Assembly (NCBI RefSeq): GCF_013394385.1
Contig: NZ_AP022834.1
Coordinates: 1,054,001 to 1,118,000, forward strand
DNA: 64,000 nucleotides
Direction: 5' to 3'
DNA from: Kocuria sp. TGY1127_2
GTDB lineage: Bacteria; Actinomycetota; Actinomycetes; Actinomycetales; Micrococcaceae
Shown: positions 7,685 through 51,337 of the stretch, in pieces
Position numbering within the stretch: the first letter of the stretch is position 1
How the letters are laid out: every line of letters begins with the position of its first letter
Notes under the pieces: generated by a model
The model's database searches: none
What the model saw: only the letters and a program-made list of their open reading frames with translations
What the model was told of the DNA's origin: nothing
Made by a program: the position numbers and the translations under genes

Positions 7685-7758
7685 CGCGGGGTGGAGCAGT
7701 TCGGTAGCTCGCCGGGCTCATAACCCGGAGGTCGCAAGTTCAAATCTTGCCCCCGCAA
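7685..7758 (+). tRNA. Initiator tRNA-fMet (CAT)
   Basis: 74 bases without encoded CCA. The acceptor arm CGCGGGG pairs with CCCCGCA, leaving the C1-A72 mismatch diagnostic of bacterial initiator tRNA. The anticodon stem-loop CCGGG-CTCATAA-CCCGG carries the three consecutive G-C pairs of initiators, with anticodon CAT at 7719-7721. The T-arm is GCAAG-TTCAAAT-CTTGC. Discriminator base A at 7758. It is a single-gene unit with its own promoter and terminator. Confidence 0.97.
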
Positions 7759-43588: not shown

Positions 43589-43958
43589 GGGGATGATCGG
43601 TTTCGACGATGCCAGTTGCGGCAGGTGAAGCGGGCCGAGAATGTAGAGTCATCTCGTTAACGTTCTCTGCAAAACAATAAGTGCCAAATCTGAAAAGCGC
43701 ACTGACTTCGCTCTCGCTGCGTAAGTAGCCAGAGCAGTCTGCTAGCCCGGGTTCGCTTTCGACCCGGTTCCTAGTATCAGTTTAGAAGGCCACTGCTCTA
43801 GTCCCTCTCCGTAGGGGGCTAGGGGACTTTTATGCGGATAGGTTCGGCGGCAACCAGTTTGTGGGAGTGCCGGAGCCGAAAACACCGATTCACAAACTGC
43901 GCCCGGAGAAACCCTGGCAAAGCTGCATCGGACCGGGGTTCGATTCCCCGCATCTCCA
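43589..43958 (+). ncRNA. ssrA: Transfer-messenger RNA (tmRNA)
   Basis: A 370-base RNA. The 5' acceptor strand GGGGATG pairs with 3' CATCTCC, and the T-arm is CCGGGG-TTCGATT-CCCCG; CCA is not encoded. The tag frame starts at GCC 43683 and ends with TAA at 43722-43724, giving AKSEKRTDFALAA, whose ALAA end is the proteolysis signal. The choice of resume codon is inferred from frame and the family's Ala-first rule; the GCA at 43669 is out of frame. Pseudoknot-like stems follow the tag. Confidence 0.96.
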
Positions 43959-43967
43959 CTTTTCACA

Positions 43968-49210: not shown

Positions 49211-49984
49211 GTGACGGCAACGTTGGAAAAGCCGTTGATGACGTCCGGGCCGACGTCCGGAGCATCTACGTCGACAAACCTTCTAGACTGGGATGAATTC
49301 ATCAGTAGGCCCAAGCGGAAGGAATCCGTGGACACAGTCGATCTGTCCCGCGAATCGGACGAAGAGCGCAAGGCTCGTTTCGAGCGGGAAGCCATGCAAT
49401 ATATAGATCAGTTGTATGCTGCCGCCTTGCGCATGGCCCGAAATCAGGCGGATGCACAGGACCTCGTCCAAGAGGCGTACACGAAGGCTTTTTCTGCGTT
49501 TCACCAATACAAGCCGGGTACGAACCTCAAGGCGTGGCTCTATCGCATCCTGACCAACACGTACATCAACCTGTATCGCAAGCGGCAACGCGAGCCGCAT
49601 CAGGCGAATACGGATTCCGTTGAGGACTGGCAGCTGGTCCAGGCTTCGGCCCACACATCATCAGGGTTGAAGTCGGCGGAGTCGGAGGCGCTCGAGCATC
49701 TGCCGGACAGTGACGTCAAAAGCGCGCTACAGTCCCTCCCGGAAGATTTCCGGATGGCGGTCTACTACTCGGACGTCGAGGGATTCGCGTACAAGGAAAT
49801 CGCAGAAATCCTCGATATCCCGATTGGTACCGTCATGTCCCGCCTCCACCGAGGACGCAGGCTCCTGCGCGAACAGCTGGCCGAATACGCCTCCGGCCTC
49901 GGATTCAGCACCGAAGGCGGTCGAAAAACCGGCTCCGGAAATAAGAAGACCAAGAATTCAACAGGCGCCCAGGGCGCCAAATAG
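49211..49984 (+). CDS. sigH: ECF sigma factor SigH (SigR-like)
   Basis: A 257-residue ECF sigma factor for thiol-oxidative and heat stress. Region 2 is visible as [20 protein letters not shown] and [19 protein letters not shown], and region 4 as [20 protein letters not shown] and [24 protein letters not shown] at 49211 is downstream of GAGGGG; an in-frame ATG at 49238 is an alternative, and longer and shorter SigR forms are known in Streptomyces. It is followed 35 bases later by its anti-sigma factor. Confidence 0.96.
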
Positions 49985-50019: not shown

Positions 50020-50349
50020 ATGACAGACTGCCAAGAGACCGGCGGATGCCGCGAAGACAAGATCCATCGGATCTATGAATACCTCGACGGCGCTCTCTCC
50101 GCGGAAGACATCGAAGACATCTGTAAGCACTTGAATGAGTGCGAGACGTGTGCTCGAGAGTATGACCTGGAATGCGTGATCCGGTCAGCGGTCAAGCGCT
50201 CATGCTGCGAGCCCGCGCCGGAAGAGCTCAAACAATCGATCCTCGCAAGAATCGACTCATTGCGCGGCAGCACCGACGCTTCAGAACACGACCATTCGGC
50301 TCTGGGTGGAGCAGGCGACGACGCCTCGGACCGCCCGCTGGCTTCCTGA
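50020..50349 (+). CDS. rsrA: Zinc anti-sigma factor (RsrA/RshA)
   Basis: A 109-residue ZAS-family anti-sigma factor. The H-x3-C-x2-C motif is HLNECETC with His37, Cys41 and Cys44, and a further cysteine at 10, closely matching RsrA of Streptomyces (Cys11, His37, Cys41, Cys44). Disulfide formation releases zinc and SigH. ATG at 50020 follows GGAAAGG. A strong terminator follows. Confidence 0.96.
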   Translation: MTDCQETGGCREDKIHRIYEYLDGALSAEDIEDICKHLNECETCAREYDLECVIRSAVKRSCCEPAPEELKQSILARIDSLRGSTDASEHDHSALGGAGDDASDRPLAS

Positions 50350-50370: not shown

Positions 50371-50410
50371 AAAAAGGGCTGAGATGCTTTCAAGCATCTC
50401 AGCCCTTTTT
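50371..50410. terminator. Bidirectional terminator after rsrA and bL37 genes
   Basis: AAAAAGGGCTGAGATGCTT (50371-50389) is perfectly complementary to AAGCATCTCAGCCCTTTTT (50392-50410). It serves rsrA on the plus strand and the bL37 gene on the minus strand. Confidence 0.94.
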
Positions 50411-50469: not shown

Positions 50470-50544
50470 TTAGGAGTTAGGCCGCTTGCCATGGTTGGCT
50501 GCGTTCTTACGACGATCCTTACGCTTACGTCCACGCTTGCTCAT
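50470..50544 (-). CDS. Small ribosomal protein bL37 (24 residues)
   Basis: A 24-codon gene with ATG at 50544 and TAA at 50470. The product starts MSKRGRKRKDRRK and ends NHGKRPNS, eleven of 24 residues being Lys or Arg. This matches mycobacterial bL37 (from memory, starting MAKRGRKK and ending NHGKRPNA), a small actinobacterial 50S protein. GGAGG lies five bases before the ATG, an ideal ribosome-binding site. The shared terminator lies downstream. It is easily missed by gene finders because of its size. Confidence 0.92.
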   Translation of the reverse strand: MSKRGRKRKDRRKNAANHGKRPNS

Positions 50545-50737
50545 ATGAGCCTCCTTCCGCGCATCTTCGTACTCACGTATGAAGAGCGGCCCTGAAATGG
50601 TCAGCCCACCGCGGACCACCCGGCGCAGGGGCGCGCGGGATCAGGCAATGGGCATTGTGCATCATTCTGCCAGACAACACGACGCCGGTGCACATCGCCA
50701 CCGAAAAATGCGAGCGTGATCTCGGTCCAACCGAGAG

Positions 50738-51337
50738 TCAGTGCTGTTCCGGAAGCTGCAACCAGGAGTACCAGCCGCGATGCAGGACCAGCCATGCCAT
50801 CAATCCGTAACCGGCCTGACCGGGGCGTCCATCGTTTGCGGCCAGATCCTGGCGCCACTGCTCGTGGTGCTGCAACGGGTTGAACGTATCCACGTAGACG
50901 TGGCGTCGTCGGGTCGTAACGTCCGCATAAGCCGCGGAAAGGTCCGCGATACGGCGGTTCTGCTCGGAATCCAGGGTGGGCGGGGGACCGACGACCAGGA
51001 CCTTGATGTTGTTCTGCGAGGCCAAATCCACCATGTTGGCGAGATTCAGCCGACTGCGGGCGTTCGTGAGGCCCGTGTCGATGTCGAAGGTCGACGGCGC
51101 AATGACCAACCGGTTGTCCGCTCCGCTAGCGAAACGACGACTAGCCTCCTCGAACCAACGCTCGTTGAGGGTCTCGCTGCCTTCACCGGGGGCGGCCAAG
51201 TTGTACGAGACGACAGGCGCCACGTTCTGGGGCGTACGCGCCATGACCCGGCCGAACCAACCAAGGGCGCGCGGGTCACCAATACCAGCCAGCAGGTCGT
51301 CGCCGACCGCCACGATCCGAATGTTTCGTTGCTCCAC
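50738..51337 (-). CDS. SGNH/GDSL-hydrolase-like protein with altered catalytic residues
   Basis: A 199-residue protein with the SGNH fold pattern. Block I reads AVGDDLLAGIGDPRALGW, where the GDSL serine is replaced by Asp. The final block reads GRPGQAGYGLMAWL, where DxxHP would be expected, so the catalytic His also seems lost. The middle blocks (NLAAPGEGSETL, LVIAPSTFDIDTG) keep family shape. Either this clade uses different residues or it is a non-hydrolytic relative. Start ATG 51337. It lies 172 bases downstream of odhA on the same strand. Confidence 0.8.
   Translation of the reverse strand: MEQRNIRIVAVGDDLLAGIGDPRALGWFGRVMARTPQNVAPVVSYNLAAPGEGSETLNERWFEEASRRFASGADNRLVIAPSTFDIDTGLTNARSRLNLANMVDLASQNNIKVLVVGPPPTLDSEQNRRIADLSAAYADVTTRRRHVYVDTFNPLQHHEQWRQDLAANDGRPGQAGYGLMAWLVLHRGWYSWLQLPEQH

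Follow-up and report, generated by a model that had tools for sequence, protein, structure and literature searches.

The question raised by this locus is whether a frame of only 75 bases, lying beside the genes of a sigma factor and its anti-sigma factor in the 64,000-nucleotide stretch of DNA analysed here (the window), is a genuine gene, what it encodes, how it would be transcribed, and whether its place beside sigR-rsrA means that the ribosome and the thiol-stress response are controlled together. Genes as short as this one are easily missed, and the proposed product, bL37, helps to form the wall of the peptidyl-transferase centre across a large bacterial group. Taken as a whole, we explain the locus with high confidence as a bL37 gene with its own housekeeping promoter, a terminator shared with rsrA, an old gene order and a structured leader. 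The bL37 family is already known and modelled by NCBI, and the gene itself is an ordinary member of it; what our study adds is the depth of the linkage, the missing SigR-type promoter and the candidate structured leader. The features of the locus are listed in Table 1.

Table 1. Features of the bL37 locus, in window coordinates.
Feature	Positions	Strand	Evidence
sigR/sigH-type ECF sigma factor gene (start codon uncertain)	49328..49984	+	TIGR02947, 338.4 bits (cut-off 251.55)
rsrA, mycothiol-system anti-sigma-R factor gene, convergent to bL37	50020..50349	+	TIGR03988, 80 bits (cut-off 62.5)
Bidirectional intrinsic terminator in the rsrA/bL37 gap	50371..50410	both	folding z, U-runs
bL37 coding sequence, 24 codons and TAA	50470..50544	-	NF047428, PDB bL37 chains, dN/dS
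Short GCUC/GAGC hairpin with AUG in the loop	50539..50550	-	invariant, so no covariation evidence
Predicted 5' leader of the bL37 mRNA (start placed from the -10)	50545..50657	-	alignment, -10, fold; R1 match
Shine-Dalgarno sequence AAGGAGG	50550..50556	-	five bases before ATG; kept in genus
P2 hairpin abutting the Shine-Dalgarno sequence	50557..50589	-	fold and covariation
P1 hairpin near the leader 5' end	50604..50653	-	fold and covariation
Extended -10 element TGGCAGAAT, putatively of housekeeping type	50664..50672	-	position -128; counts in relatives
Conserved TGTGCAC, possible -35 region	50688..50694	-	genus alignment
SGNH/GDSL hydrolase gene, upstream of bL37	50738..51337	-	PF13472, 60.6 bits

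An earlier note on this DNA had proposed a 75-base gene of 24 residues, preceded by an ideal GGAGG site and matching bL37. Its coordinates, length and product proved exact, and the strand, which it had left unstated, is the minus strand. The frame from 50544 to 50470 is complete (ATG at 50544-50542, TAA at 50472-50470) and encodes MSKRGRKRKDRRKNAANHGKRPNS; the GGAGG core lies at 50554-50550, separated from the ATG by five bases. The product matches the NCBIfam bL37 profile NF047428 with 51.8 bits against a cut-off of 30 (E 6.6e-14), this being the single match to the profile in the whole genome (E 3.4e-12), and a phmmer search against PDB chains aligned residues 1-24 with bL37 of 7kgb, 5o60 and 8crx (E 1e-6 to 6.7e-6); a Pfam search with the product gave no match. 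The remark in the earlier note that the gene falls under usual gene-finder cut-offs concerns its length, but a curated NCBI model covers it. The curated model and the alignment to solved chains thus support the identification of the product as bL37. A GTG start at 50619, which would give 49 residues, was rejected, as the conserved Shine-Dalgarno site gives it no support. According to parts of three cryo-EM papers (PMC5876184, PMC6133939, PMC10085706), bL37 adjoins helix 89 of the 23S rRNA and the tip of the 5S rRNA in the 50S subunit, and the product encoded here would most likely bind the same pocket, as those parts describe for mycobacteria and Cutibacterium.

Since the frame is short and the region holds many open reading frames of similar length, a chance frame of basic composition has to be considered. 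The comparison of relatives gives this reading practically no probability. In the same-genus set of 35 genomes (the genus was taken as Rothia), the frame, its ATG and the AAGGAGG are retained in all 35; the loss of frame and ribosome-binding site in close relatives, which the earlier note had named as evidence against its own proposal, was therefore found in none of them, and AAGGAGG is invariant across the 29 distinct leaders. The 22 distinct coding sequences of the genus encode 11 peptides and vary in three columns at first codon positions, two at second and 17 at third positions; dN/dS is about 0.055 (ratio of sums over 219 pairs), and the peptide varies within the genus at residues 14, 15 and 24 alone. 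This coding-selection pattern, together with the NF047428 match, refutes the chance frame. At greater distance, bL37 was found in all 149 family genomes searched, which cover 32 of 32 genera, in 56 of 59 relatives, and in 67 of the 396 genomes of a phylum sample. Two departures from this pattern were observed. One genome (G377) carries, besides a normal bL37 beside rsrA, a divergent bL37-like frame with a C-terminal extension (MSKRADKKRARRNNNANHGKRPNSGKRLRATKL..., L098 3089-3202, +), which by inspection adjoins SDR, KdpA-like and two-component genes. In one family of the phylum sample, f4 (G225, G257, G268, G316, G343), none of the five genomes has a bL37 match and all five have an RsrA match; it is possible that bL37 has been lost there or has strongly diverged.

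The gene order around bL37 is also widely conserved. Among the 56 relatives that bear bL37, 54 have rsrA within 2 kb of it: in 45 the two genes are convergent, in seven bL37, sigR and rsrA follow one another on one strand, and in two rsrA lies 5' of bL37 on one strand; the remaining two have a SigR gene within about 1 kb of bL37, with no RsrA among the matches listed. A different collection, of 80 named SigR loci, has bL37 no farther than about 3 kb away in 75; in 72 of these bL37 and SigR are on opposite strands, and the five misses may stem from the text pattern or from cut contigs. In the phylum sample, rsrA is not listed for 14 of 69 bL37 matches, which does not equal absence, and its linkage counts are read as lower bounds: at least 21 of the 29 bL37 genomes of the same class have bL37 convergent with an rsrA within 2.4 kb, and one has it at a contig end, while the other seven of the 29, all of family f5, and the 38 bL37 genomes from other classes show no linkage to rsrA among the matches listed. 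From these counts we regard the order as old within the class. A literature search found no printed mention of the linkage, with many journals outside its coverage. In practice, the order offers a simple handle for locating bL37 in unannotated genomes. Local rearrangements occur as well. Seven genus members (L062-L068) have sigR-rsrA inverted relative to the window and still adjoining bL37, in the one-strand order SGNH-bL37-sigR-rsrA-aroA. In two loci (L060 3044-4048 of G432 and L061 3000-4202 of G447), bL37 lies 3' of sigR-rsrA on the same strand, an arrangement in which read-through from the sigR stress operon into bL37 is possible. In the window, the strand of bL37 also bears a long gene that, from its translation, we take to be the 2-oxoglutarate dehydrogenase-like Kgd.

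It is tempting to read so deep a linkage as co-regulation, with bL37 a member of the SigR/SigH thiol-stress response and ribosome composition adjusted to redox stress. The order holds in 54 of 56 bL37-bearing relatives and in 75 of the 80 named SigR loci and survives the local inversions of the seven genus members, and SigH/SigR is known to control a ribosomal protein gene, rpmE, directly, according to the part of PMC4803200 that also gives the SigH consensus GGAAYR-N17-GTT. However, the promoter evidence makes such co-regulation very unlikely. When GGAAYR-N16-18-GTT was sought within 250 bases upstream of bL37, no box was found in the 35 genus loci or in 51 other loci (0/86), and a looser GGAA-N18-21-GTT occurred in none of the 35 genus loci and two of the 51 others, against 2.1 and 1.0 expected. 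The element that is conserved there is of a different type: an extended -10, TGNNANN[AC]T, is present upstream of bL37 in all 35 genus loci, in 39 of 52 other loci and in 69 of 75 named loci, the numbers expected by shuffling being 7.4, 5.2 and 10.3. A simple sigma-70 scan came up empty in the bL37 region because this -10 fits TATAAT poorly. bL37 and rsrA are, in addition, mostly convergent, with a strong terminator between them in the window, and in the seven f5 genomes and the 38 outside the class the linkage itself is missing among the matches listed. SigH/SigR control of bL37 was accordingly rejected at the promoter level on the motif search. The earlier note had drawn attention to ribosome-composition and thiol-stress genes as neighbours; the adjacency stands and is widely conserved, whereas a functional link finds no support at the promoter level.

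We instead take the conserved extended -10 to belong to a vegetative promoter, whose sigma factor is inferred. In the mechanism that we propose, bL37 would be transcribed alone from this SigA-type, extended -10 housekeeping promoter, and its transcript would end at the hairpin terminator common to the convergent rsrA. Its place beside sigR-rsrA would reflect a gene order that is old; the motif searches gave no indication of SigR control. The earlier note was right about the shared bidirectional terminator: the hairpin at 50371-50410 has folding z values of -6.1 (+) and -6.9 (-), with U-runs on each strand, and a simple terminator scan did not pick it up.

The interval between this promoter and the start codon forms the last part of the question. 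In the genus loci, the -10 sits 90-133 bases 5' of the bL37 ATG, farther than in most other genera examined, and many other family members have short bL37 leaders without P1. Folded singly, most genus leaders form a hairpin close to where the mRNA is predicted to begin; its length and loop differ widely between leaders, and a contiguous helix begins at leader position 2-8 in all 29 distinct leaders. The strength of this helix is modest, with a mean score of 18.1 against 12.7 in shuffles over the 29 leaders and per-leader p from 0.01 to 0.83; the folding z averages -1.69 over the leaders and is -1.38 for the window's own. By folding, a hairpin occupies a similar place in three Kocuria loci (L148, L155, L159), a hint that the element reaches beyond one genus, and inspection by eye shows one at a like position in loci under two further genus labels of this family (g239, g259).

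Covariation was counted in two sets of the 29 distinct leaders, A2 (five sequences) and A3 (eight), which are two clades chosen because they could be aligned; the other 16 leaders were folded singly, aligned in A4 and left out of the covariation counts. In the window's clade of five, changes on both sides are seen in nine of 36 consensus pairs, the sequences being few and related, and the paired fraction of cells is 88.8%, compared with 28-46% when the alignment is slid. In the clade of eight, equally a matter of few and related sequences, both sides have changed in six of 21 pairs, and pairing extends to 97.6% of cells, compared with 29-58% after sliding; here a CCUU/AAGG pairing overlaps part of the Shine-Dalgarno sequence. 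The covariation score was reached by none of 500 shuffles in either clade, again with few, related sequences, and a second measure, further standard pair types, did not rise above the shuffles (181/500 and 179/500). An RNA model, R1, matches 50539-50659, having been built partly from the window sequence. The A2-based model matched 11 of the 35 genus genomes at E <=0.1 and left 24 without a match; five of the 11 are the training sequences, in each of whose genomes the bL37 leader is the sole strong site, and the remaining six belong to other species, where the bL37 leader is matched weakly. Two further weak matches (G000 and G417, E 0.05-0.06) lie away from the bL37 leader.

Searches for known relatives of this leader gave the following. 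At the gathering score, Rfam recognised only a tmRNA (43589-43961, +) and one tRNA gene (7685-7758, +) in the 64-kb window, neither of them at the bL37 leader; under relaxed settings the bL37 locus gave only weak sub-gathering matches, including microRNA families on the terminator hairpin, which we take as chance. A comparison of primary sequence between the leaders and the helix 89 region of their own 23S gene gave a longest shared word of 5.97 on average, against 5.96 in shuffles. A word common to three leaders, UAUCGAC, is at chance level (p 0.16-0.20), and the idea that the leader sequence imitates helix 89 of the rRNA was set aside, there being no excess of shared words over shuffles.

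As to function, the structured leader of the genus would tune the stability or the translation of the mRNA, and probably does so. A rather likely reading is that the hairpins do no more than stabilise the mRNA by protecting its end, or serve as passive spacers, in neither case binding a ligand: P1 begins 2-6 bases from the predicted leader's 5' end and differs widely in length and loop between leaders, no mimicry of helix 89 sequence was detected, and many family members do with short leaders lacking P1. Against so simple a role stand a second covarying hairpin, P2, situated 5' of the ribosome-binding site and, in the window's clade, directly against it, and the CCUU/AAGG pairing by which the Shine-Dalgarno sequence is partly covered in the other clade; the position of P2 and this pairing suggest translational control. 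A more elaborate candidate is a ribosomal-protein leader in which free bL37 binds P1/P2, closes the ribosome-binding site and so sets its own level. We consider this unlikely on the present evidence; if true, a protein of only 24 residues would be controlling a regulatory RNA.

The bL37 leader, whose function probably lies in mRNA stability or translation, resembles the ribosomal-protein leaders of PMC7247131, a paper listing 20 new ones, in having a conserved 5' leader structure on the mRNA of a single ribosomal protein gene; it differs in that L37 does not appear in the main text of that paper and that Rfam has no match for it. The main text of a review on extraribosomal functions likewise does not include L37. 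The likeness to rpmE is that of a ribosomal protein gene tied to the SigH/SigR system, but rpmE is a SigH target, whereas bL37 is a neighbour only and lacks the box. The planctomycete bL37 (NF047429) shares the product name in NCBIfam, but its profile gives the window product 10.5 bits, far under its cut-off of 40. The closest counterparts are the bL37 proteins of the solved ribosomes (5o60, 7kgb, 8crx), to which the window product aligns end to end over 24 residues, with ANHGKRPN near the end and, counted from the alignment to the 7kgb chain, identity at 17 of 24 residues.
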